From positions 107,340 to 136,513 of the forward strand of contig NW_003156245.1 in NCBI RefSeq assembly GCF_000003605.2: a stretch of DNA of 29,174 bases, written 5' to 3'. Of this stretch, positions 2,336-22,061 are shown piece after piece; position 1 is the first letter of the stretch, and each line of letters opens with the position of its first letter. The notes under the pieces are model-generated. The model did no database searches and had not been told where the DNA came from. It worked only from the letters and a program-made list of their open reading frames with translations. This DNA comes from Saccoglossus kowalevskii. Lineage: Eukaryota; Hemichordata; Enteropneusta; Harrimaniidae. The position numbers were made by a program, and so were the translations under genes.

Positions 2336-2475
2336 ATTTGCATCCGCCAAGTGTTTTGAATAATGGGGCAACACCAAGTGTTGGGGCTGATGTTGAATTA
2401 TTGTGCCAAACCACCGATATCAATAAAAACTACAAATATGGTTGGTATTTTGAAGGTAATGAAGTATTGTCTGAT
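2336..2475 (+). CDS. Ig exon A (first half of Ig domain)
   Basis: The acceptor is TTTTGTCCTTAG and the donor GTGAGT. Entry is phase 1 and exit phase 0. It encodes the N-terminal half of the Ig fold: PPSVL, the strand-B cysteine in ELLCQT and the strand-C tryptophan in YGWYFEGNEVL. An intron in the middle of the Ig domain is common in I-set-type domains. Confidence 0.85.
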
Positions 2476-3316
2476 GTGAGTATTATTTGTTATTAAAAAC
2501 AAACATTACTTGGAATGTATCTTACATGGATTTACTCATTAATTTAAAAATTTAAATTCTGTAGGGTCCGCATCTGAGAATTCTTAATATAACTGTGGAC
2601 AATGTCGGTAAATATCAATGTGAGGTAAAGGGCGAGTGTGGAATGTCATCATTATCTGACATGATGTACTTAAATATTGATGGCGTCATACGTCAACTCA
2701 CAACGGGTTTGTATAATATTTGTTTATATGCACAAGTAGTAGACACATTTTGTTTAAACGATTAAACATATATACTTACTATTGTGTGCCAGTCTAGACC
2801 TGGTGGGCATATATACATAGTAGAACTAGATACTATGTAATATCTCACTAGTGAAGTTATGTTGTGGTACTTTTGCAAACTTATTGTCCAGACAATAAAT
2901 GTGTTGTAGTATTGATCTATAGAAACAATGCTTTAAATAACAATCTCTCCTGTCACACAATCAGTGATTGAAAGTTTCAATTTCCTCCTGACAGAGGCTC
3001 CAAGTCAGACAGATAGATGGATAGTGATCGTATGTAATAATGTTATACTGGTTATCATGTGTGTAATAGTTGGAATAATATGTTGTGTTGGCTACTACAG
3101 GTGATTGTCTTTTTTTATTTTAGAAAGAGTTTTCAAAATTTTAAATAGCCGTAATATTTTAAGTGTTTGACCTGACATAATTATTATTCTGGTTTATAAA
3201 AAAATATTGATTTGTTTTTGTTTCTTTGCAGAAATAAAAAGAGCAAGAACGCCAGAACATATAAATACAGAAAAACTCAAAATAACACTGAGAGTGGAAC
3301 TCTGGAAATGAAATAA
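2336..3316 (+). CDS. single-Ig-domain type I membrane protein, 3' part (4 exons, 5' end missing)
   Basis: Four exons join in one frame: 2336-2475, 2565-2706, 2995-3100 and 3232-3316. Entry is phase 1, and the internal junctions are phases 0, 1 and 2, all GT-AG. The product carries one Ig domain with the first cysteine in ELLCQT, the core tryptophan in YGWYFEG, and the canonical D-x-G-x-Y-x-C as DNVGKYQCEV. A sequon (NIT) lies in LRILNITV. A hydrophobic segment and a short basic tail ending in TLEMK follow. The tail has no recognisable ITIM or ITAM. I found no signal-peptide exon; it must lie upstream, possibly on the far side of the acidic exon. The stop TAA overlaps an AATAAA at 3312-3317. 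No family name is justified; it is a small Ig-superfamily surface protein. Confidence 0.82.
2565..2706 (+). CDS. Ig exon B (second half of Ig domain)
   Basis: The acceptor is AAATTCTGTAG. Entry is phase 0 and exit phase 1. It encodes GPHLRILNITVDNVGKYQCE, carrying the strand-F cysteine motif, then an extra cysteine in KGECG that could pair elsewhere. I chose the donor at 2707 because the GT at 2711 leads to an immediate stop in the next exon. Confidence 0.85.
2995..3100 (+). CDS. transmembrane exon of the Ig protein
   Basis: Encodes EAPSQTDRW followed by about 25 hydrophobic residues (IVIVCNNVILVIMCVIVGII, then CCVGYY) and then a basic stop-transfer residue. Entry is phase 1 and exit phase 2. 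The acceptor is TCCTGACAG and the donor TACAG|GTGATT. Placed after the Ig domain, it makes the protein type I. Confidence 0.85.
3232..3316 (+). CDS. cytoplasmic-tail and terminal exon of the Ig protein
   Basis: The acceptor TTTCTTTGCAG is strong. Encodes a basic juxtamembrane stretch (NKKSKNARTYKYRK) and a short polar tail ending TLEMK, then TAA. Two tyrosines sit close together in TYKYRK, but neither matches a known signalling motif. The AATAAA overlapping the stop implies either a very short 3' UTR or use of a later signal. Confidence 0.85.

Positions 3317-8101: not shown

Positions 8102-8184
<83 letters not shown>
8102..8184. repeat. (AT)n microsatellite, about 80 bp
   Basis: An uninterrupted alternating AT run. 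Such runs mutate quickly in length and can form cruciforms. It lies about 1 kb downstream of the stop of the - strand kringle gene. Confidence 0.97.
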
Positions 8185-9228: not shown

Positions 9229-9509
9229 CTATTCAGATGATATATTCGTGAAAATAAATACTCTGAATGAGTGAGAACACGATGGCATAACGGTATATAT
9301 ATCGTATGTTTGACAGGCCGTGCAACTACCGAAACAACTACCCATGTACACTCCAAACATCATGTAACCGTTATCTCTCGCTACCGCAGCACATTTGCCG
9401 ACAGGGTTTATCCTTTCACGTGGCGGACCATCCAATCTGTGGTCAGTTCCTTCAAGTGATTCAATAGCATGTGGATGGTCATGGTAATAACATCCAACTA
9501 ATCGATAAA
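9229..9509 (-). CDS. exon 21: C-terminal WSC-like/apple-like domain and stop
   Basis: The acceptor has a long pyrimidine tract ending GTTCAG. Entry is phase 1 (VYRLVGCYYHD) and the stop is TAG at 9229-9231. About 92 residues contain GCYYHD, AIESLEG, the DHRLDGPPRERINPVGKC stretch, the helix-like AAVARDNGYMMFGV, and cysteines in GSCFGSCTACQTYD and MPSCSHSF. The pattern GCY-D, then C, A-x-x-x-GY-x-x-F-x-V, then cysteines recalls WSC domains. It also recalls a SLEG/LDG/KC domain I remember from cnidarian and other marine invertebrate extracellular proteins. Both assignments are from memory. The last residues are hydrophobic (FRVFIFTNI) but too short for a clear membrane anchor. Confidence 0.8.
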
Positions 9510-12500
9510 CTGAACAAAAAAAAAACAAACAAAAAAGAAACAAGATATAAAATAGCCTATAATATTTTTTTTGAATCAAGAACGGAAGTCTCCAAGAAAT
9601 ATTGTTCATTGCATAGCAACTTGATTTTATACACAGAAGAACTATTTTTGCGACATACCAAGTAAGCCCAAATACAACCTACCGCAAACGAGGTTATCGA
9701 AGTCCTCACATTCACAACCAGTTTCACATATTCCGCCACATTCGGCAGTGCATGGTACTTCCAGAAAATATAATAAAATAAAAACATTATTCCATTGTCA
9801 GGATATTATATGTGATGTTTGATGAACTGTGGACAATATACACAAATATATTGTTTGACATATTTATATAAAAAATGTGAAAAATGCGCACAAACACTCG
9901 TAATGTACATAATGCTTTTATTTTACTGATATGATACCCTATATCACAATATGATTTTCCCACGAACAACGTATTCATAAAAAAAAATCTTGATTGTTTA
10001 CATATCAGTGACTAGTTTTGACCGAACTGTGTAATCATCACATATGCAAATATTGGGGATGCATACAAATTAAATTACTTCTTGGATAACTTCTGTCGGG
10101 CTTACCTTCAGTGGTATAATACGGTGTAGTATATTCATCAATAGTTGTTAGATCACTCCCTGATATATTATAAAAAATACTGATTCAAATATAAGTTTTC
10201 AATGGCATTATCATTGAAACAAAAAAAAATGGCCAGTTATTGTTGGTTAAATTGAGAAGAGTATATCACAGGAAACTGCATAGGCGAGTACATAATGGAG
10301 TATGTTGGCAATATCGAGTGATATACCTGTTTGTAGCGGTGGTTTATTGCTATTCTTTCATTACATTGTCATTTTAACTGTAATTTCTATGCACGAAATT
10401 ATTTTTTAAGTGCCAAAATACACTATTCAAAAGTGATGACCATTTAAAATCTTCCACTTGCGTGCGATTGCGGTTAAACGAAATGAAACATTAAACACGA
10501 GTGGTGGAGTAACTTTGCACCCATATCTTTGAAATTTATTCGTGTAGTTTTATGATTGCGGCAAGACAACGATTCTCTCCACACCCCTGATTACGTTATG
10601 AGAATCCACAAAAAATTGGCCAATTTTACTTTACAGCAGGATTTACACATTGTGTTGTAACCAAGGTAAATTACTGTATACCGTCTGATTAACTACGGAT
10701 TGCAAAATTACTTAATCAAACAATTGCAATGCTTGTATAAAACATATAAGTTGCATTTAAATTTGAACAATATATCAACATTCAATGTATTTCTGAATAT
10801 TGAATACATATAATTTACCTTCTGATGTTTGTTCAGGATAAGGCGTAGATGTTACAACTGGAATAAAATAACAATTGAACAATAATTACTAGTTAAATCC
10901 AGCAAGTGGCATTATATATGTGCACTATTTCGCAACACAAAATATCATTATTTCGTACACAAGTTGTTGTAAATGCTCCGAAACCGAAAATTGCTCTCGT
11001 GGAGCACATTGATTAATGTGCCACTGTACGCATTGATCTATCTATGTTGTCTCATATAAATTATTGTTTTATACGTCCGTTGCACTCTTTTGAAAACCCT
11101 ATACGACTATTGATATTGAATTATTGGATGCACATACCTTTGCTTTTTTTCATTTCGATATAAATATAAATAATACATATTAAGTAAATTTGCATTCCGA
11201 AATACTTAACTTGCCATGAGTTTAGTACATGCAATTTTTCATACTGTTTTATCTGCATAATACTAAATGAGGAATTACCAACGACAAAGAAAACACGGGG
11301 TATGGCCATGCAACACCATGTAAATACGTACTTGAAATAAATTGTTGTTCAAACATGTATGCTACAAATCATCATGAGGAAATTGCAAAACATATTTACC
11401 TTGAATTGTTTGTTTTTTTCATTTTAAATTGACTTTTTGTATGAAATTTACTAAATTGATGTATATATGTCTATTTCATTAGTTGCAAATTTATGGTTTG
11501 TGATCACGTGACAACTCACAAATTACCTCTGGCTAGATTCCAGACACATGGAACAATTATTAGACTACTCATAGCCGGCATATCCAAGATGTTCACTAGA
11601 CGTTCATAACAAGAAGTATTTATCGTATATCATGGTAAAAACTATCACTGGTAATTACTGGTTGCAACAACTCCCAACATAACACTGACACTTTCAGATA
11701 AGTAGAACGCCATCGTTGATACCTTGTATTCAGCTAAGATAGTCTAACTATGTACTATCTATTTCATGAAGCTATTCAAGTTTTAACAAACCAGTGCTAA
11801 TAAAGTTAACATAAATGCATCTGTTATATCTATAACGTACATGTCTTTTCGTGTGTATATATTATGTTTGAACATCGAGTGAAAATTAACTTTGACTTTC
11901 TATCTTTCTTGTTCTTTTTTTTACTTTTATTACTGTCTGGGCTTTATCTATATTATCAACAAGGTATATGATTTTGGGATATACCTTGTTCATTTTAGAA
12001 CAAAGTGCCCTTCGCTCTCGCAAATTTTAAAAGAGACCTCTTGCCCATTTAAAACAGATTGCCTCAATTACCCTTTAGTAGGTTCTAATAATTACCCTCT
12101 TGGCCATGTTTTGGTTAGCGGATATGTTTTTTGTGTGCAGTGGTATTTCTGTTTCTGCTATATGCAGGATGTCCTGTAGTTTTAGATTTAGAACAGTTTA
12201 GTCTAACTTTATCTTCTCTTTGAAAATATCCGGCAATAAATCGTAAGTTGCAGTTCAGAGTATCACTGGTAACAGGAATATTGGTATGAATCAGACCAGA
12301 CAGAATGTCCTGAAACATACCTCGGGGTGTGTATTCATCAGAAGTGACAATATCAGTTGTCATTATGTCCGTTGTTGTATATACAGATGCTTTATTAGTT
12401 GTAGGGCTGTGTGCTGTCAGTATATGTGGTTCTGCAGTGGAAACTGAAAGTGTAACAAGAAGTGTAATTATCATAATCACAACACAATGAGTAGAAGGTA

Positions 12501-15500
12501 GATTCCTCGTCATTGATCATTGTCAAGAGGATTGGTGACTCAGTCACATGACGTAGAATAAAAATGGAAATTGCATGGTATTACTTGAGCTTGATGTAAT
12601 CGTTGCAAAAGCTAATGTATCTGCCACTGTTTCTGTTCAATTAATGTATCCCACACGTAGCTACTGATGCTTCCTTTAATACGATGACGATTAACACCCA
12701 TGACAAGCCCGTAGGCTGGTTGGCCAACCGAACATGTATTTGGCTGTTGCCATGGTAGGACATGAACGCCAATATTTTCGAAAATGTATTTTATCAATAG
12801 GTTTGTTTTAAAACCAAACATCTTCATCACCAGGAGAGTTATCACATGTTCTGATGTTGTAGCTCGATTACATTATTCCACCAGACACGCCATCGTCGTC
12901 ATTCTTGCACACTTAGCTCCCAATATGAATAAAGTACTCCATCCTCTGATTTCACCATAAAATAACCTCGTAAATCACGCTGACCCTCCCTTCCGAAATA
13001 TACAATAATACTGAACCATATTTTGTGTAGAAGGACGAGAGGACTGGTGTTATATCCACAGTATGTTGGTAGAATGACTGATTTATGAACTTTACTTTTA
13101 AGCTACTAGCTTCATCTCCCTTGACGAGATCAACATTTTGGCGCATAGAATACTGTGACAAAGACTTTCTAATTTCAACATTGTGAAGTTATTTCGTTTT
13201 TATGCAGAAAAATACAGTATTTTCACCAAGTAAAATCATACACCTCTCAGACCTCTCTCCCGCAAAATAACTTCTTAACGCTTGTTGTTTCAGAACGCCG
13301 TAGAAATAACTACAATGATTTTTTCCCGAATGCACCACACCTTCTATTTGCATTCACAAGTCACAAGTATGGCAGGCGCGAAACGCTCGCGGCGTAGATC
13401 GCGCCGCAGCGATAATGAATGTGACGTTTCAGTGACTGCTTAGCCGTACATATTTGCAGCATATAAAACACATTCTAAACATAAAAAACGGTGTATATTA
13501 CTGACTTGCCTTGGTTATATCGGTTACACCTATACATGGTCATATACGGCAGCTTTAAATTAATGTGCAGTCACATATTATTACTTACCTGGCAAGGGTG
13601 TATATTTCAAATCAGTGACATCTGGACTAGTACTCAAATCTTCAGTGATACGCATATTTATTTTGTCAGTTGTAAAATCAGGAAGTGGGGTGGTGCTTTT
13701 CTCTGGTTTGACAAATCACAAATTATAATATTATCAACAACGATGCTCGACTGGCCAGCAATTAGTAATCATTTATAGAATATTACTTGTTAGATGAGGT
13801 ATAGCTACTAACGTTATGATAAATACAATGTAAAATTCTTTGGTTTTTTTTTTAAACGCAACCTAAAAAGAACTGATTTTGAAAAAAAAAATCAGAATTG
13901 TATTAAGAATAAACAAGAATATTATGGAAAAAAGAAAATTTTCTATATTCTCTATATCTTTGCATTTTATTTGTCATGAATTATGACTGAAACATGCTGA
14001 ATGAAATTACAAAATGTTCAACAACTCATGTATGAACAACTGTAAAAATGCTGCATCAGAACAAAAAAACTTCGCAATGTCGAAAAGGAAAAGTTTTTTT
14101 TTTCATATCAGTGTTAATGATAATATTAATTTATATACCTTTGGAAGCAGTTGTGTGTTTTTGATCGGTGACAACGCCAGTTGGCATCATTCTCATTGTT
14201 GTATATACGATTGCTTTCTCAGTTGTTGGTGCCTGTGTTGTTGACATATGTGGTTCATCGGTTGTAACTGAAATTTTAAGAATAATAATAACATCCTAAC
14301 CAGCACAAAAAAACAAACGAACGAAGGACAGTACATTCATCATCATGAATCATTGCCAAATATAAGCCAATATCTTATACAATGGTTCCACCATCAACGT
14401 TTGGCGATATGCTCTCGACTTGTTGCTTCCTTCGTTTATGTATCACTTGTCCAATTAGGGATGAACACGTGCCACTTAAATACTACCCTCATATAATTAG
14501 GATATCAGGACATTACCTTGTGGAGGATTGGTGTACACCATTGGTGTGATTTTAGAACTTTTTGGTTCTAGTGATGTTAACCCATGAACTGTTGGAATAG
14601 GAGCTTCGGTCGTGGTACCTAAAAGTCCATGAGAAATATTCAAAATTGTCATTACAAGTATTGATATCACCTTATAGTAATACCAATTATTAATTATAAT
14701 ATACAATTATATAGAACAGTGACGTTATTGTTATGCTAATTGCCGCTCGTCGATTCGCATGTCAGTGTATTGATTGTACTATTTTACCTAATATAATTGA
14801 TCACATTGTTTTCCATAGTATGTGTTTGGTTACGTTGAAACAATTCAACATGAATATTCATCACACACTCAAACAAATAGACTATGAAATGTAGCGAGAT
14901 ATGTTGGTTTGTCCCCTGTGGCGAGTCGATTGTCGTGACTGCGAATTCCAATTATATGTTTAGTTTTTGTTTCCATATACAAATATTATGTAAACCGTTA
15001 TCAAGTTCGCCTAACAGATAAAATGGTATTATAATATACAATTTAAACGCAATCATTCGCTTTGGGTAATTCCATTTGTTTGTATTCAGAAAGTGTTGGA
15101 GTGTGCGTTTCTGAGATCTGGCCAATATAGAGGATGTCATGATTGGTTAGCAAACACATGCGCGAAATTTACGGTGAAAGTTAACATAGTTTAAATTGTT
15201 GCTTCCTTTGTTTATGTGTCACTTGTCGCCAATTAGGGATTAGCACGTGCCACCTAAATACAACTCTCAGCATAATTATGATATTACCTTGCGGAGGATT
15301 GGTGTACAACATTGGTGTGATTTTAGAACTTGTTGGTTCTAGTGATGTTAATCCATGAACTGTTGGAATAGAAGCCTCGGTAGTGGTAACTGAAAGTTTA
15401 CAAGTATTGCAATCGTCTTACAGTGATACCAGTTGTTAATTATAACATACACTTATATAGAACAGTTTTCTATGATGTTATTGTTATGCTATTTGCCGCG

Positions 15501-18500
15501 TATCGCTCGTCAATGTGCATGTCAGTGTATTAATTATACACTTTTACCTTATATAATTAATCACATCATTTCCCATAGTATGAATTTAGGTCACCATGAA
15601 TATTCATTCACACACTCAAACAAATAGGCTGTAAAAGGTAGCGAGGTATGTAGCGTTGGTCCGCTGTGGTGAGTCGATTGTCGTGGCCGCGAATTTCAAT
15701 TAAATGTTCAGTTTTTGTTTGTGTACACAATTACAATAAAAAAACATGATCAAGTTCGCCTGACAGATGAAATTTTATCATAATATACAATGATAACACA
15801 ATTCTGTGCTTTATTTGTATATTGGTTAGTGGATTTAGTTTGTGGTTTTCATATTTATTATTGTGTATCACTGCTTACCACAATTTGCACCTGGGCGACC
15901 AACACGACAGTATCGCCAGCGTACACTGGGATTCACTGTGTAGCACCACGGAGCGACTTTATCATCTGGGTTCCGACAGTGATTGTGATTACCGAGACCA
16001 GCATTTGGATAGTTTTGTGGTGTTCGTGTGTGGCTATGAGGGGTCTGCCACGTCCATTTTTGACACGTGTCGCCACTACCAGCTACGCTTAATGTTCCTC
16101 GGTAGTCAGTACCATGTACATCCCTGTAACACTCTGAAGTTGGACCTGAAATGAATATTTATTGATAAATAGTGGATATGAATAATGCACCAAAGTGTAG
16201 GTATGTAGTCTGTATATATTTATATGTTTATTTAAACGTTAAATAACTTACCTTCGGTGGTCTTGTAATTCTCGGATGTTGTATGTTTTGTTCTTTGTGT
16301 TGTTCCTGTTGTTGTTGGTAAATATTCTGTAGTAACTGAAATTACATATAATGTCGGTATAATTTAACATGTGCCAGTGCTGCATGGTATCTTCCTTGTG
16401 GATAACAGTTCGAATAATGGATAGTTACTTGTCACCGTATAAACAGTTTTCCGAACACATGTTTAGAATTTAGCTTGAGTGTACATGTCTCCTTTGAGTA
16501 ATATGTAAATAAATTACATTTCGTAATCAAATTAGTAGACGAAAGATGTTTGAACCAATAGTATACAGAAAGTAATGTAATATATCATTATGAGTAGCAT
16601 TCAAATAGTTTTCGTGTGGTTGGCACATGACAAGTGCCATTGCTGCCATCTTAGTTCTCCTAACAGTGTTACAGCATTGTACCTCAAGCTCACCATATTC
16701 GTTTACCACACATTTTAAAACTAGTTGTTTATTACAAAACTATTACTTTAGTAGTTTAGACAGAATAAAACAACATTGTAGTTGTATTACAGACTTGAAT
16801 TGAGATAAGGGAAGGTGATAGGTATTTTTCGTGACTTTTTCCCAGTAAAATTAAAAATCATCTAATTTGTCATATTTCTTTTGGTGAAAAAGATGTCTCT
16901 CAAATATAATTTCAAGACACATATCTAAGAATGAATTATAATTCTGTAGTCTTTTCTACTACTGTAATCTCTTGTTCAACAGAATATAACATTGATTATA
17001 GAAACTAAAACTAAATATAGAAATATCGATGAAAGATATATATGGACGACGTGTATTCATTCTTCGGTAATAACATTACCAACCTGTTACCTACAATTCA
17101 ACGGTTTCCGCAAACACAAAACAATGTACATACCACAATTCTCATATGGGTCCCCGACATCACATAATCCCCAACGCTTGGCGGGATTTGTGGTATAGCA
17201 CCACGTTTGTATATCTGCATCAGGGTTTCGACAATAGTTGTGGTCACCAAGACCAGCGCCTGGGAAGTTTTCCGGAGTCCTAGTGTGCTTGTGGGGTGTT
17301 TGTTCCGTCCATTGTTGACAAGTTTCACCTTGGATTGTGGTGCTCTTTTTTCCACGGTAGTCACTTGCATCTGGTACCTTATAGCACTCATCTAAAAACA
17401 CAAATATGAAAGTATGTTATTTTTGATTATGCAACATGTATATAAAAAAAATTGGCAACCTAACAAATTGTCAAGCATTTTAAATCACTGAAAACTTGAT
17501 AAGAATTAGGCATTCACCATGCACCTACAAATTAAGCTCACCGGGAATAATTCCAGGCAATGTTGTTAGTGGTGCTCCCGTTGTTAACTTGGCTGTAACG
17601 TTCGTTCCTTCCGTTTCCTGTTTTGTAACTAGTTTTTCTGTTGTCTGCCATTTTGCTGGAAAATGCACAATGCATGAGTATAAACAACTGGTAAAGATTA
17701 ACACCAAAGAATTATATAGTATACTGTATGTCATGCATTACCACGCCTAAACAACATGCGTTGTAACACATGACAATTCTTACATTAAAAACATAATATA
17801 ATTATCAGTACTGTTCAATATATCGAATTTATTGTGATTTGTCAATGAAAGTATTCTTTTATTATACCCAGAACAAAGAGTGTGTGATGCAACAACTACG
17901 GTGTCTATGTGCAATTGTTAAATGTTTGCCAAACTATGTATGTCCTGACTTGGTTTTCTACCACGATGTTAGCTCTTTATTTGTATTTCAGTGAATGAAA
18001 TGTTAATTATGCCTAATGTTTTTGTATGCTGTCTTCGAGACATCTGGTTTTCAAATGGTTATCAGGCAAGCTATACATTTAGAAACAAAAACATTGATTG
18101 ATATAATTTGATAGCTCATTTGATTTATGCCTTCCATGACTAAATATAGTTCAGTCCCTGAGAGGAAGGTGCCAATTAGATTTGTGTTAATGTGTATGTG
18201 ATAGTGAAATTGTCGTCAAGGATTCAGGTTCTTCAGTTCCAGGTTCCGTTGTATTGACATATGCTGATGCAGATTTGGTATGTGTATAATGTATATCGTT
18301 AGTTGGGTATTGATAGTTAGATTACAATACAAACATAAACATACATTTTGTGAGCAAGTACTATAATAGTTTACCCTTAGCTTTTATATCTATATGACAC
18401 TATTTAGTAAGTCATTCACTGTGATTACCGAATACCCGAATCAGCGGTGTAACACCTTTCTGTAAGACCCGGCCATAGATGTATCTGAGTGATTAGGGTT

Positions 18501-21500
18501 GGGGGTCAGAGATGTCTATTTATAACATTCACTTCATGGATTATGGTGTTGGAAAGTCAATAAAACAACCTTCTGTATTATTCCGCTGTTATACATACAA
18601 AAGTTGATCAATCTGATTTTTATGTACTTAATTTTAGAAAAAAAAGACAAAAAACAAAAACATCTGTCATAATAATTGAAACCATTTAAATGACTTACCC
18701 AGTTGAACTGAAGTAGGTTTTGTCAGTGAGGCCAGTGTTGTTACACCTGGAGGTAAAATAGTTAATATAAAGTAAAACACAATTTATTCACAACATTCAA
18801 GTAAGTTCATTGAACCATTTGTTAAATCTTATTCTTACTACAATCGTCACGGGGATCTCCAATGTCACAGTAGTCCCATCGTATAGTAAGGTTGGTCGTG
18901 TAACACCACACATGCACATCACCGTCAGGATTTCGACAGTAGTTGTGGTCTCCAAGACCGGCATTTGGATAATTATCCGGCGTTCGCGAATGATAATGAT
19001 ATGTTTGATCCGTCCATTCAGAGCAGTCTACTCCTCTTTGTGTCATGTTAACTATACCGCGGTAGTCACTTCCATCCGTTTCTTCATAACATTCAGTTAT
19101 ACCTGAAATACAATTATCCCTTGTAATATCAAATATATGAACAATATATAAAGTTTAAATATGATTTTTTATGCAATTCATCTGTTATAATAAGTTGAGT
19201 GATGTGAATGTCTTACGTGGTGAAACTTGAGGTGAAGTTGGGGCTACTGTTGTTACACCTAGAAGTAATAAATTGGATAATATTAAGTAAAAATAAAGTT
19301 TAGCCGCAACAATTATATCATTAAGTACAGTAAATAATTTCTTAAATCCAATTCTTACTACAGTCCTCGCGGGGATCTCCAATGTCACAGTAGTCCCATC
19401 GTATAGTCAAGTTGGTCGTGTAACACCACACATGCACATCACCGTCAGGATTTCGGCAGTAGTTGTGGTCTCCAAGACCGGCATTTGGATAATTATCCGG
19501 CGTTCGCGAATGCTGATGGTGTGTTTGATCCGTCCATTCAGAACAGTCTACTCCTCTTTGTGTCATGTTAACTACACCACGGTAGTCACTTCCATCCATT
19601 TCTTCATAACATTCAGTTATACCTGAAACACAATTATCCATTGTAATATCAAATATATGAACAAAATATGAAGTTTAAATATGATTTTTTATGCAATTTA
19701 TCTGTTATAATAAGTTGAGTTATGTGAATGACTTACCTGGTGGAACTTGAGGTGAAGTTGGGGCTACTGTTGTTACACCTAGAAGTAATATATTAGATAA
19801 TATTAAGTAAAAATAAAGTTTATTCGCAACAATTATGTCATTAAGTAAGTACAGTGAATAATTTCTTAAATCCAATTCTTACTACAGTCCTCGCGGGGAT
19901 CTCCAATGTCACAGTAGTCCCATCGCCGATTAAGGTTGTTTGTGTAACACCACACAAGCACATCGCCGTCAGGGTTTCGGCAGTAGTTGTGGTCTCCAAG
20001 ACCAGCATTTGGATAATTATCCGGCGTTCGCGAATGCTGATGGTGTGTTTGGTCAGTCCATTCAGCACAGTCTTCTCCACTTCGTGTCATGTTAACTACA
20101 CCGCGGTAGTCACTTCCATCCGCCTCTTCATAACACTCAGTTATATCTAAAATCCAGATAGTGCTTGTAAGATCAAATATTTGAATAACATGTGAGGTGT
20201 TAATATGATACAAAATGCAACTCACACTCATCTATATATACTTACCAAGAGGATGATCTTTGACCCGCAATGCAAACACCAGAATCACAACCAGGAAAGC
20301 TATGGCTAGTACAACAGCAAATGCACAAATTGCTGCCAAAGCAAAATTAGAAGCTTTTTCCTATTGGAAGTGAAAATATGTATTTGTTAAGTAAATAGGT
20401 GTCATGACACCTTGCAAGCAGCATGTATAAAATCATGCATATTTTACAGTCGCTAACATCGCAATCAAAAACGCGGTCTCAAAATGTATGCACTACATGG
20501 ATGAAAAAGAAAACAAATCCTATTTGGTTTTATTATAGAAGTAAAAGCGAAATTTAGTCACACTTTCTTTATAGTTGATTTTTTATTTATGTTTTGTTTT
20601 GACGCAGTGGACGCTAATACGAAAATCGTGGTCAATTCATTCTATTGATGTATGGTCCAAATGGAGATGCACAATATTCACAGCTTTTCAACAATGTTTG
20701 TAAAATCTGTGAATGTATTGCTTTCTGGTTTATTAAATCATTTTGGAATTATTTCATGCTGTCACAAAAGCCCGTCTCCCGTGTTATAGAGTCGATTATA
20801 CTATTAACATAACAAAGGGACTTGTATAAATTAGTTGTTCGATACTCGATACTCTTAGCATCCACTTTCAGTAAAATTATTAAGTTTTGACACTGTCTAG
20901 GAGACAAGTGTACACTGTAGATCAGATATAGTATTGTATAATATAGACAAAATAGTATAATTTTGTAATCAGTTTATCCATAGTCAAATACGAAGGAACG
21001 TTTTAGGCATATACGTCCCATCGAGCCGTTGATTTTGAGTACTGGTCACAAGATCCTGGATACGTTTATGAAACTTAGTCTATAAAGTTCACTGGACTAT
21101 ATCTCCATGACTTTGGTGCATATACAATTGTCAAGACCCAGTTTCAAAGATCAATGTTCTATAAAACTACAATTAATTATTTTACATCTCAGATTTCTGA
21201 AACAAATACATTATCATAGCTGCATGCTTAATAACGGGTAAGGTAGGTAATAATACACTAATGTTTTTACACTATTGATACCTCAATAATGCAGTAGACT
21301 ATAGTCAATTACAAAATCTCTTAAGGTAGAAACCTATTCATATTTTCTGAAAAAGTTGGGCATAAATCGCATGACGATGTTCATTTTTTTATGTACAATC
21401 ATTGCGTTACTATCCCATGGCACCAGGAAATAGCTTTGTGAGAAACTTTCCTAATATTTAAATTCTATAGAAAAGAATGTTGAAAAATGTTGCATTTTTG

Positions 21501-22061
21501 ACACATTTTGAACTTTTGAAAAACAAATAATTAAATAATTAATTAATAATTAATTATAATTACATCGTTCGCAATATATATTTTTTTACAATTTGAATTA
21601 TGGCATAACATTTCTGCCATGGCATGACAGATCTCTATAATACTGACAAAATGGCCACAATCAACTAAAATACAAAAATAATTTTATCGAAAATTGTGCC
21701 GGTGATCCCCAACTTGTTTTCATGTAAATTTCCTTATATTGCCCGGAAATAGAGTTAATTGCAAGATGAATTAAAGAAAGCTTACTAATCTACAAATGTT
21801 ACTGTATCAATTAGAACATTCTCTTATTAAACCGTGATTACAAGTCCTTTATGTCAAGCTGTTTCAAATTAATACATCTTTCATACGTAAATAAGCATGT
21901 GATTTAAGCATTTTCCTACGGAAATCACTACCACGTATTCTTAATTTTGTACACTGCAGTCATGTCGCATTAACCTCTCGCCTACCTACATCCAATAACA
22001 TTACTAATAGAACACATTAATGTAAATATGATGTATGTGCAACACTCACTGATTGTACCAT
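9229..22061 (-). CDS. multi-kringle membrane protein with mucin-like stalk and C-terminal cysteine-rich head (21 exons)
   Basis: Chaining 21 GT-AG exons gives one open frame of 931 codons with the stop. Order: MVQS start exon; membrane segment; kringles K1-K3 with 14-16 residue linkers; a 38-residue linker; K4; a Thr-rich linker; K5; seven Thr/Ser/Pro-rich linker exons (stalk); a six-cysteine 25-residue module; and a WSC-like or apple-like C-terminal domain. Each kringle has six cysteines and the HN[YH]CRNP and WCYT signatures. Junctions are phase 0 before the membrane exon and phase 1 everywhere after it. Kringles bind protein ligands outside cells, often through lysine side chains, so this is probably a surface or secreted adhesion or receptor protein; the ligand is unknown. 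Kremen also combines a kringle with WSC, but its order and other domains differ. The start exon is the least certain part. Confidence 0.85.
9683..9757 (-). CDS. exon 20: six-cysteine mini-module
   Basis: 25 codons, phase 1 in and out. Acceptor TTTTCTGGAAG (weak, ends AAG), donor GTAGGT. Spacing is C-x3-C-x3-C-x3-C-x-C-x7-C within CTAECGGICETGCECEDFDN and the closing LVC. Six cysteines suggest three internal disulfides in a very small fold, or pairing with the following domain. I do not recognise the family; it is EGF- or antistasin-like only in density. The exon sits between the stalk and the C-terminal head. Confidence 0.72.
10106..10159 (-). CDS. exon 19: short Thr/Tyr-rich stalk linker
   Basis: 18 codons, phase 1 in and out, acceptor ATATATCAG, donor GTAAGC. 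Encodes SDLTTIDEYTTPYYTTE. The Thr runs suggest O-glycosylation, and the DEY/YY pairs could be sulphated (inference). Confidence 0.75.
10160..10818. other. intron of the kringle gene
   Basis: AT-rich, no supported exon. A donor-like site near 10325 (-) lacks an acceptor in a compatible phase and was rejected. Confidence 0.6.
10819..10857 (-). CDS. exon 18: 13-codon stalk linker
   Basis: A microexon, phase 1 in and out. The acceptor is TTTTATTCCAG and the donor GTAAAT. Encodes VTSTPYPEQTSE. It rests mainly on splice-site quality and phase, since the peptide is too short to identify. Confidence 0.65.
10858..12320. other. 1.46-kb intron of the kringle gene
   Basis: AT-rich. Donor-like sites at about 11134 and 11400 (-) are not joined to any Thr/Pro-rich phase-1 exon. 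The ORF around 11121-11309 (-) encodes a hydrophobic, non-linker-like peptide and is not supported. Confidence 0.55.
12321..12443 (-). CDS. exon 17: Thr-rich stalk linker (paralogue of exon 15)
   Basis: 41 codons, phase 1 in and out. Acceptor TTACACTTTCAG, donor GTATGT. The peptide has AEPHILTAHSPTTNKA, then VYTTTDIMTTDIVTSDEYTP. It aligns with exon 15: EPH, then PTT-x-KA, VYTT, an M/T pair and VVT/IVT occur in the same order. The two are diverged copies of one linker. Thr and Ser content predicts mucin-type O-glycosylation. Confidence 0.8.
12444..13588. other. 1.1-kb intron with a possible decayed coding fragment
   Basis: On the - strand, frames at about 13161-12952 and then, after a shift, about 13010-12900 read protein-like (for example DLRGYFMVKSEDGVLYSYWE) but are broken by stops. 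At about 13375-13435 the sequence is unusually CpG-rich and includes a GCGGCG/CGCCGC hairpin. I cannot name the source, which may be an old insertion. Confidence 0.35.
13589..13702 (-). CDS. exon 16: stalk linker
   Basis: 38 codons, phase 1 in and out. Acceptor TTTGTCAAACCAG, donor GTAAGT. Encodes KSTTPLPDFTTDKINMRITE followed by DLSTSPDVTDLKYTPLP. It is richer in Asp than its neighbours and has no cysteine. It is the least repeat-like of the longer linkers. Confidence 0.75.
14139..14267 (-). CDS. exon 15: Thr-rich stalk linker (paralogue of exon 17)
   Basis: 43 codons, phase 1 in and out. Acceptor TTAAAATTTCAG, donor GTATAT. Encodes TTDEPHMSTTQAPTTEKAIV, then YTTMRMMPTGVVTDQKHTTA. It is homologous to the linker at 12321-12443, which shows a duplication with about 1.8 kb between the copies. 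Confidence 0.8.
14390..15050 (-). repeat. tandem duplication unit, 771-bp offset (copy 2)
   Basis: This block, including a linker exon and its flanks, matches about 15190-15790. Shared landmarks are TTGTTGCTTCCTT, CAATTAGGGAT, CACGTGCCAC, TATATAGAACAGT, GTTATTGTTATGCTA, GCATGTCAGTGTATT and ATCAAGTTCGCCT. Substitutions and small indels separate the copies, so the event is older than the kringle-block duplication to the right. Confidence 0.8.
14517..14618 (-). CDS. exon 14: stalk linker, copy 2 of the 771-bp duplication
   Basis: 34 codons, phase 1 in and out. Acceptor GGACTTTTAG, donor GTAATG. Encodes TTTEAPIPTVHGLTSLEPKS, then SKITPMVYTNPPQ. It is nearly identical to the exon at 15288-15389; visible changes include S to P, T to K and L to V. 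The acceptor context differs from its copy (TTTTAG against TTTCAG). Confidence 0.82.
15190..15790 (-). repeat. tandem duplication unit, 771-bp offset (copy 1)
   Basis: Partner of 14390-15050. Both linker-exon ends are offset by exactly 771 bases (14517/15288 and 14618/15389). The intervening flanks carry indels that balance out over the exon. Confidence 0.8.
15288..15389 (-). CDS. exon 13: stalk linker, copy 1 of the 771-bp duplication
   Basis: 34 codons, phase 1 in and out. Acceptor GTAAACTTTCAG, donor GTAATA. Encodes TTTEASIPTVHGLTSLEPTS, then SKITPMLYTNPPQ. This is the first stalk exon after K5. The near-identical copy lies 771 bases away at 14517-14618. Confidence 0.82.
15879..16145 (-). 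CDS. exon 12: kringle 5 (K5)
   Basis: 89 codons, phase 1 in and out. Acceptor TCATTTCAG, donor GTAAGC. Six cysteines sit in SECYRD, DTCQKW, HNHCRNP, PWCYT, RYCRV and GANC, and DYRGTLS is present. This kringle is the most diverged. HNYC is HNHC, and the acidic DxD of the lysine-binding pocket reads PDDKVAPWC, placing lysine at the second acidic position. It probably lacks classical lysine binding (inference). PSVRWRYC matches vertebrate kringles well. Confidence 0.95.
16252..16335 (-). CDS. exon 11: Thr-rich linker between K4 and K5
   Basis: 28 codons, phase 1 in and out. Acceptor TATGTAATTTCAG, donor GTAAGT. Encodes TTEYLPTTTGTTQRTKHTTS, then ENYKTTE. More than 40 percent of residues are Thr, a mucin-like linker. 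Confidence 0.8.
16336..17133. other. intron of the kringle gene
   Basis: AT-rich with no supported exon. The ORF at 16527-16709 (-) has no linker or domain character. Confidence 0.55.
17134..17391 (-). CDS. exon 10: kringle 4 (K4)
   Basis: 86 codons, phase 1 in and out. Acceptor TTGTGTTTTTAG, donor GTATGT. Six cysteines sit in DECYKV, ETCQQW, HNYCRNP, TWCYTT, GLCDV and ENC, and SDYRGKK is present. The lysine-pocket DxD is kept (PDADIQTWC), with KRW downstream. GLC replaces the usual aromatic-Y-C before C5. The fold looks intact, and it is the most plasminogen-like of the set at HNYCRNPDAD. Confidence 0.96.
17542..17655 (-). CDS. exon 9: linker between K3 and K4
   Basis: 38 codons, phase 1 in and out. 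Acceptor GCATTTTCCAG, donor GTGAGC. Encodes KWQTTEKLVTKQETEGTNVT, then AKLTTGAPLTTLPGIIP. It contains one N-glycosylation sequon (NVT) and many Thr. It is longer than the linkers separating K1-K3. Confidence 0.8.
17656..18698. other. 1.04-kb intron with a candidate alternative exon
   Basis: Mostly AT-rich. It holds the possible alternative or decayed linker exon at 18187-18263 (-), listed separately. Nothing else is supported. Confidence 0.5.
18187..18263 (-). pseudogene. candidate alternative terminal or decayed linker exon
   Basis: After a CTGCATCAG acceptor, a phase-1 frame encodes YVNTTEPGTEEPESLTTISL and a few more residues before TAA. The Thr/Glu/Pro composition and the sequon NTT resemble the true linkers, but no donor GT exists in the open stretch. 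It is either a relic linker exon whose donor was lost, or an alternative last exon giving a three-kringle isoform. No AATAAA follows closely, which argues for a relic. Chance cannot be excluded. Confidence 0.3.
18699..18746 (-). CDS. exon 8: linker after K3
   Basis: 16 codons, phase 1 in and out. Acceptor TATTTTACCTCCAG, donor GTAAGT. Encodes VTTLASLTKPTSVQL. It is homologous to the 14-codon linkers (VTT-x-A-x), but two codons longer and diverged. Confidence 0.82.
18839..19102 (-). CDS. exon 7: kringle 3 (K3)
   Basis: 88 codons, phase 1 in and out, 264 bp exactly like K1 and K2. Acceptor ATTTCAG, donor GTAAGA. Cysteines sit in TECYEE, VDCSEW, HNYCRNP, VWCYTT, DYCDI and DDC. The lysine-pocket DxD is present as PDGDV. 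Two sequons occur, NMT and NLT. It differs from K2 at only a few residues (for example TYHYHS against THHQHS, and RDD against RED), so it is a recent copy. Confidence 0.97.
19217..19258 (-). CDS. exon 6: linker between K2 and K3
   Basis: 14 codons, phase 1 in and out. Acceptor TTACTTCTAG, donor GTAAGA. Encodes VTTVAPTSPQVSP. Near-identical to the K1-K2 linker (VTTVAPTSPQVPP). The last exon base is C where its copy has G, giving an Arg instead of a Gly at the junction and a weaker donor context (CAC|GTAAGA). Confidence 0.88.
19359..19622 (-). CDS. exon 5: kringle 2 (K2)
   Basis: 88 codons, phase 1 in and out. Acceptor TTGTGTTTCAG, donor GTAAGA. Cysteines sit in TECYEE, VDCSEW, HNYCRNP, VWCYTT, DYCDI and EDC. 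It keeps the DxD (PDGDV) and RWDYC features of a lysine-binding kringle. Sequons are NMT and NLT. It is the closest relative of K3. Confidence 0.97.
19737..19778 (-). CDS. exon 4: linker between K1 and K2
   Basis: 14 codons, phase 1 in and out. Acceptor TTACTTCTAG, donor GTAAGT. Encodes VTTVAPTSPQVPP. A short Thr/Pro spacer, likely extended and O-glycosylated. Confidence 0.88.
19883..20146 (-). CDS. exon 3: kringle 1 (K1)
   Basis: 88 codons, phase 1 in and out. Acceptor CTGGATTTTAG, donor GTAAGA. Cysteines sit in TECYEE, EDCAEW, HNYCRNP, VWCYTN, DYCDI and EDC, with SDYRGVV. The lysine-pocket DxD (PDGDVLVWC) and NRRWDYC are intact. One sequon (NMT) remains; the second, found in K2 and K3, is absent (NLNRR). 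It follows the membrane exon after a DIT junction. Confidence 0.97.
20246..20360 (-). CDS. exon 2: membrane-spanning / signal-anchor exon
   Basis: Acceptor CACTTCCAATAG, donor GTAAGT. Phase 0 in and phase 1 out; the other two entry phases hit stops. Encodes EKASN, then about 26 hydrophobic residues (FALAAICAFAVVLAIAFLVV and ILVFAL), then RVKDHPL. With the kringles downstream it must act as an uncleaved signal anchor (type II) or an unusual signal peptide. The charges do not clearly favour type II, because the positive residues sit on the kringle side. That leaves room for a different N-terminus. Confidence 0.85.
20361..22049. other. first intron of the kringle gene (1.69 kb)
   Basis: AT-rich. 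A palindromic AATTAATTAATAATTAATTA stretch lies at about 21535-21560. The part around 21300-21720 has the feel of an old interspersed repeat but has no ends I can define. No exon found. Confidence 0.5.

Follow-up and report, generated by a model that had tools for sequence, protein, structure and literature searches.

On the minus strand of the window (the whole stretch of DNA analysed here, 29,174 nucleotides of Saccoglossus kowalevskii), 21 exons running from 22061 to 9229 splice into a single frame of 930 residues (2793 nt, 930 codons plus stop). We read this chain as one gene and give about an even chance to the proposal that it encodes a type II membrane glycoprotein serving, without catalytic activity, as a receptor for capture, adhesion or recognition.

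Exon chain and putative membrane anchor

The gene model was read from genomic sequence alone, on the contig that we refer to as C4566. The original prediction had described 21 exons in one uninterrupted frame of 930 residues without naming the strand; splicing of the minus strand reproduces this chain, with GT-AG borders in all 20 introns; the junctions from exon 2|3 through exon 20|21 are all in phase 1. The features, all on the minus strand, are the following.

22050..22061, minus: exon 1, start codon and MVQS, 12 coding nt, donor GTGAGT; the least certain exon
20246..20360, minus: exon 2, putative membrane anchor EKASNFALAAICAFAVVLAIAFLVVILVFALRVKDHPL, 115 nt, phase 0 to 1 (like exons in paralogues)
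19883..20146, minus: exon 3, kringle 1 with the DxD lysine-site motif (Pfam, residue survey)
19737..19778, minus: exon 4, short Thr/Pro linker (splicing)
19359..19622, minus: exon 5, kringle 2, DxD (Pfam, PDB match, residue survey)
19217..19258, minus: exon 6, short Thr/Pro linker (splicing)
18839..19102, minus: exon 7, kringle 3, DxD (Pfam, residue survey)
18699..18746, minus: exon 8, short linker (splicing)
17542..17655, minus: exon 9, Thr-rich linker (splicing)
17134..17391, minus: exon 10, kringle 4, DxD (Pfam, residue survey)
16252..16335, minus: exon 11, Thr-rich linker (splicing)
15879..16145, minus: exon 12, kringle 5, DxK, lysine site probably lost (Pfam, residue survey)
15288..15389, minus: exon 13, Thr-rich stalk, 92% identity with exon 14 (splicing, fixed-criteria scan)
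14517..14618, minus: exon 14, Thr-rich stalk (splicing, fixed-criteria scan)
14139..14267, minus: exon 15, Thr-rich stalk, paralogue of exon 17 (splicing; under the fixed-criteria cut)
13589..13702, minus: exon 16, Thr-rich stalk (splicing, fixed-criteria scan)
12321..12443, minus: exon 17, Thr-rich stalk, its acceptor aligning with that of exon 15 (splicing, fixed-criteria scan)
10819..10857, minus: exon 18, Thr-rich stalk (splicing, fixed-criteria scan)
10106..10159, minus: exon 19, Thr-rich stalk (splicing, fixed-criteria scan)
9683..9757, minus: exon 20, six-Cys module C-x3-C-x3-C-x3-C-x-C-x7-C (splicing, spacing search)
9229..9509, minus: exon 21, WSC-like head and stop codon (splicing, family alignment)

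The least certain parts of this model are exon 1, the membrane topology and alternative transcripts. Exon 1 has an in-frame stop five codons upstream and a Kozak context that is good as judged by eye, and upstream of exon 2 no DNA similarity to paralogues was found at E ≤ 1e-3.

The predicted N-terminal membrane segment was recovered as residues 10-35, the sole strong hydrophobic segment of the product (best 19-residue mean 3.37, against 0.96 elsewhere). Charges beside the anchor, judged by eye, do not decide the topology, and it is the disulfide-rich domains that point to a type II orientation, with the C-terminus outside. Membrane exons of the same kind stand directly before a kringle at five other places, two on C4566, two on C4317 and one on C4132, with hydrophobic 19-residue means of 2.91 to 3.65. 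Searches of small sequence sets with tblastn gave anchor-like exons at C4317:116457 (E 1.3e-6), C4317:80733 (E 7.5e-4) and C4566:230978 (E 0.013), and an exon scan gave one at C4566:207282 which, like exon 2, has 115 nt; splice sites and phase 0 to 1 could be read in four of the five paralogous exons, C4317:80733 being unconfirmed. Against the whole genome, the anchor peptide recovered the window copy alone at E ≤ 0.1.

The V-F-A|L site that follows the hydrophobic stretch could be cleaved, and the V-F-A directly before LRVKDH fits the -3,-1 rule, so that the segment might be a cleaved signal peptide and the protein secreted. However, the hydrophobic run has 26 residues, which is long for a signal peptide, and strongly hydrophobic stretches occur in the five paralogous exons too; we consider secretion very unlikely and retain the membrane anchor.

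Several other features were noted in the window. A short immunoglobulin-domain gene with a membrane segment lies at 2340-3310 on the plus strand (Ig_2, E 7.4e-8, with two exon peptides that were put together by eye), and a 100-residue frame at 863-1165, also on the plus strand, has a DUF4616 match (28.2 bits, cut-off 27). A 43-base tandem repeat of 7.4 copies occupies 1690-2008, and 41 copies of a TA repeat occupy 8102-8183.

The Thr-rich stalk and a second locus

The seven Thr-rich stalk exons of the original prediction are all present in the chain. Together (exons 13-19, residues 592-812) they encode 24.9% Thr, 8.6% Ser and 11.3% Pro and no Cys. Using fixed splice-score and composition criteria with exons of up to 150 nt, we found six Thr/Ser/Pro-rich exons in the stalk interval, all in phase 1, exon 15 being outside this count because it falls under the summed splice-score cut. 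In 100 dinucleotide shuffles the mean was 0.01 exons per phase and the maximum 1, and a control sequence of 114,729 readable base-strands gave no such exon in any phase. The stalk exons are thus far beyond chance.

A second locus, on the plus strand of contig C4132, has its parts in the same order: a membrane exon, a kringle, Thr-rich phase-1 exons, a six-Cys exon and a head.

C4132:16232-16340, plus: membrane exon, 109 nt, phase 0 to 1 (place, phase and hydrophobicity)
C4132:16840-17097, plus: kringle, 58% to exon 3
C4132:22047 to 40451, plus: six Thr-rich phase-1 exons, the last overlapped by one phase-2 match
C4132:40775-40861, plus: six-Cys exon, recognised by its spacing, which is identical to that of exon 20
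C4132:start at about 41345, plus: head exon, ending in a stop

The scan of this locus allowed exons of up to 200 nt and found no stalk exons between 25404 and 40272, an interval in which 29841-32002 is N; the reading also omits 17801-22000. Since these gaps remain, what C4132 offers is an order of parts as read, and not a proven transcript. The anchor peptide has no match in the C4132 membrane exon, its best match on that contig (E 3.2) lying elsewhere. C4132 and C4566 are the contigs that appear in both the kringle and the head lists among the matches listed. Absence of a head near the neighbouring kringle genes of C4566 was considered as counter-evidence to a shared architecture and was dropped; it says little because runs of N (87341-107339, 136514-188502 and 210344-226100) take up 87,745 of the 161,045 bases read.

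The locus on C4132 bears on whether the window holds one transcription unit or two. A kringle gene ending in Thr-rich sequence could be followed, as a separate unit or from an alternative promoter, by a secreted protein made of Thr-rich sequence, six-Cys module and head and starting at the ATG at 12513. From there an in-frame ATG and a signal-peptide-like stretch (12443-12513, minus) run into exon 17, with a peak 10-residue hydropathy of 3.49; of the 1506 acceptor-frame combinations of the window, 29 have values of at least 2.4. However, exon 17 can be aligned with exon 15 at 72% over 118 nt (E 6.6e-14). The alignment takes in the last part of the intron before them, and with the two acceptors aligned exon 17 resembles a duplicated internal exon. 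An ATG with a hydrophobic stretch can likewise be read at exons 9 and 21 (2.31 and 3.24), a pattern that AT-rich pyrimidine tracts may produce, and the Kozak context at 12513 is weak as judged by eye. Since the acceptors align, two other exons behave alike and C4132 repeats the order with a membrane exon, exon 17 is better read as internal. The same order on C4132 makes a two-gene split, or a chance chain, unlikely; we regard two units as quite improbable and keep the single gene, which may have an additional, shorter transcript.

Kringles and the lysine site

All five predicted kringles were recovered: PF00051 matches five stretches of the 930-residue product (371.5 bits, cut-off 34.3, E 1.8e-113), and each of the five kringle exons scored singly lies above the curated cut-off. 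The Pfam scan (E ≤ 5) found no protease domain in the product, in agreement with the original prediction, and no CUB, kinase, Ig or Fz domain; the profile search that had been proposed for kringle, WSC and PAN domains thus returned kringles, and neither WSC nor PAN. Kringle 4 also contains an NtA match, which we disregarded because its 16.6 bits lie below the cut-off of 25.1. In PDB, kringle 2 matches plasminogen best (E 1.4e-98), and within plasminogen it is kringle 4 that scores highest. In the host genome (572 Mb, 4830 contigs) there are at least 86 kringle matches, at least 77 of them over the cut-off. Kringles are unusual in bacteria; scanning genome contigs with kringle 2 also gave a 605-residue protein of Pseudoalteromonas amylolytica (L001:3669-5486) that has two kringles at its end (PF00051, E 1.6e-31).

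Kringles 1-3 are close tandem copies, with exon identities of 88.6-94.7% and dN/dS of 0.23-0.24, a ratio that needs careful reading because the copies are a patchwork. Within 18839-20146 (minus), identity reaches 94% between the introns that follow kringles 1 and 2, yet exon dS is 0.25; it is 76% between the introns that follow kringles 1 and 3, and 71% for kringles 2 and 3. The 94% intron identity next to this exon dS suggests that gene conversion has taken place between kringle copies.

For the lysine site we assume that the residue set and numbering D55, 57, W62, R71 and 72 apply to these kringles. The criterion was D55, D/E57, W62, R71 and an aromatic residue at 72, the DXD/E motif being taken from the available part of PMC5467299, according to which plasminogen kringles 1, 2, 4 and 5 have DXD/E and kringle 3 has DXK, with binding abolished. 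Kringles 1-4 of the window protein all have D55, D57, W62, Y64, R71 and W72, and kringle 5 has K at position 57. The lysine binding put forward in the original prediction is therefore supported at residue level for kringles 1-4, which would be expected to bind, and not for kringle 5. Since kringle 5 departs from kringles 1-4 at a position of known importance, the idea is directly testable.

The survey covered 21 of the 26 kringles in hand (four C2729 kringles and one C1555 kringle were omitted). D55 with D/E57 is kept in 14 of the 21, and D55, D/E57, R71 and an aromatic residue at 72 are jointly kept in 9. In the C4132 kringle the lysine site is lost, and lysine binding is therefore not conserved across both genes of the same order; it may be particular to the window gene and its C4566 and C4317 relatives.

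This variability among relatives (the 14 of 21), the Thr-rich stalk and linkers, the 7 N-glycosylation sequons of the predicted product and the very short tail would also suit a protective membrane mucin. Such a protein would form a glycoprotein coat without a specific function as receptor, and its kringles and head would have a chiefly structural part or bind only loosely. Conservation of the surveyed binding residues in kringles 1-4 and the dN/dS among kringles 1-3 argue against such a coat, which we hold to be unlikely, and the receptor remains our preferred reading.

The head, the proposed receptor and known systems

The predicted six-Cys module is exon 20. Its spacing occurs at two loci in 406,434 readable six-frame residues (overlapping loci being counted repeatedly), each time just upstream of a head exon, and its peptide found itself alone genome-wide at E ≤ 0.1. 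The module has no Pfam match at E ≤ 10, and somewhat resembles what we take to be half a TIL domain.

The head of exon 21 has 26 other matches in the genome (E ≤ 0.01), which makes at least 27 copies; its two closest relatives share 51% and 49% identity with it. Many of these lie in arrays of WSC-like heads at C594:181887-186692 and C594:349237-369394. Sixteen of the 27 matches, 20 of which were cut as loci, were aligned (the window head and 15 relatives), leaving out L042 and L048, which were unparsed, and L041 and L049, in reverse orientation; the alignment has 18 invariant columns, among them four invariant Cys. At E ≤ 1, Pfam WSC is recognised in 15 of these 16 sequences (best 7.4e-8), the exception being the window head, which has no match to any family at E ≤ 10. 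Seven of the 15 relatives were scanned singly, one lying over the curated cut-off of WSC (PF01822) and six below. The window head has six Cys, lacks the GG...VYI end of its family and carries a CFGSCTAC stretch that resembles one in its two nearest relatives. The WSC consensus has eight conserved cysteines and a CGG motif (PMC9024836, available part); with no PF01822 match, no eight-Cys pattern and no GG, the window head falls outside it. The WSC-like head of the original prediction is thus not recovered from this head alone but is supported through its family: since 15 of the 16 aligned members match WSC, we assign it to a WSC-like family with four invariant Cys that departs from the eight-Cys consensus. 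Searching PDB with the last 118 residues returned nothing, and the head-family profile had no significant match there; on viral contigs, neither the head nor kringle 2 had any relatives. Three matches to a head-motif DNA pattern were rejected as not head-like.

In the protein that we propose, a cytosolic tail of about nine residues would precede the anchor, followed outward by five kringles, a Thr-rich stalk (probably O-glycosylated), the six-Cys module and a distal WSC/PAN-like head. Borne on the stalk, the head would bind its ligand, a glycan or a protein, at a distance from the membrane, in line with reports of beta-glucan or protein-partner binding by WSC domains (PMC9024836, PMC9252488 and PMC5014086, in the parts available). 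Near the membrane, kringles 1-4 would bind partners bearing lysines, either internal or exposed by proteolysis. Because there is almost no tail, signalling would need partners or clustering. From the intact lysine-site residues, the distal WSC-type head and the short tail we infer a capture or adhesion receptor; the adhesion or recognition role of the original prediction has the same standing.

In the open-access literature searched, with annotated animal protein databases outside the search, we found no described family with this order of parts, in line with the original prediction that the architecture is unfamiliar; a relative that lacks annotation or publication may well exist. The recurrence of the order on C4132 suggests that the window gene belongs to a protein family. 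More speculatively, and in our view unlikely, the gene could belong to an undescribed family of animal membrane receptors in kringle gene clusters, in which protease-free lysine recognition of the plasminogen type and a WSC head on a mucin stalk would serve to detect surfaces that are foreign or have undergone proteolysis, while the way in which head and kringles are linked would have diversified from one gene to the next. Kringle-bearing lineage-specific genes are noted in another invertebrate, Xenoturbella (PMC11521371, available part). A proper family description would be worthwhile for the four-Cys WSC-like heads and for the six-Cys module found ahead of two of them.

Fungal Wsc1-type wall sensors also carry a WSC-type head on a membrane protein, in Wsc1 above a Ser/Thr-rich stalk, and by analogy the window protein may work in a similar way. 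By contrast, Wsc1 has an eight-Cys WSC domain and no kringle (PMC9024836, available part), whereas the window head has six Cys and its family four invariant ones.

Kremen 1/2, like the window protein, combine kringle and WSC in one membrane protein, and the head-family profile touches the Kremen WSC at a non-significant E of 2.7-6.8, so that a Kremen-like modulator of Wnt/Dickkopf signalling was weighed. Kremen is a type I protein with one kringle, WSC and CUB, and requires the kringle-WSC-CUB triplet (PMC5014086, available part). The window protein, with an N-terminal anchor and a probably opposite orientation, has five kringles, a long stalk, a six-Cys module, another Cys pattern and no CUB, and thus lies outside the Kremen type; such a modulator is highly improbable.

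ROR, a membrane protein with a kringle, and MuSK are kringle-bearing membrane proteins as well, and the window protein differs in having no kinase, Ig or Fz domain. The MuSK kringle is reported from fish, amphibians and birds.

The kringle array with its DxD motif is shared with plasminogen, apolipoprotein(a) and HGF; plasminogen also has five kringles, and DxK in its kringle 3 as the window protein has in kringle 5. Kringle 2 differs from plasminogen by one additional residue before the NYC motif. In HGF a trypsin-like domain follows the kringles. The same arrangement is described for plasminogen (PMC5467299, available part), whereas the window protein, in which Pfam finds no protease domain, falls outside the plasminogen/HGF family and has instead an N-terminal anchor, Thr-rich linkers and stalk and a C-terminal WSC-like head. 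Kringles would stand here in a membrane-anchored, non-proteolytic setting with surveyed lysine-site residues intact; they would again be paired with a PAN-fold-type module, a combination known from plasminogen, HGF and Kremen, but in a new order.
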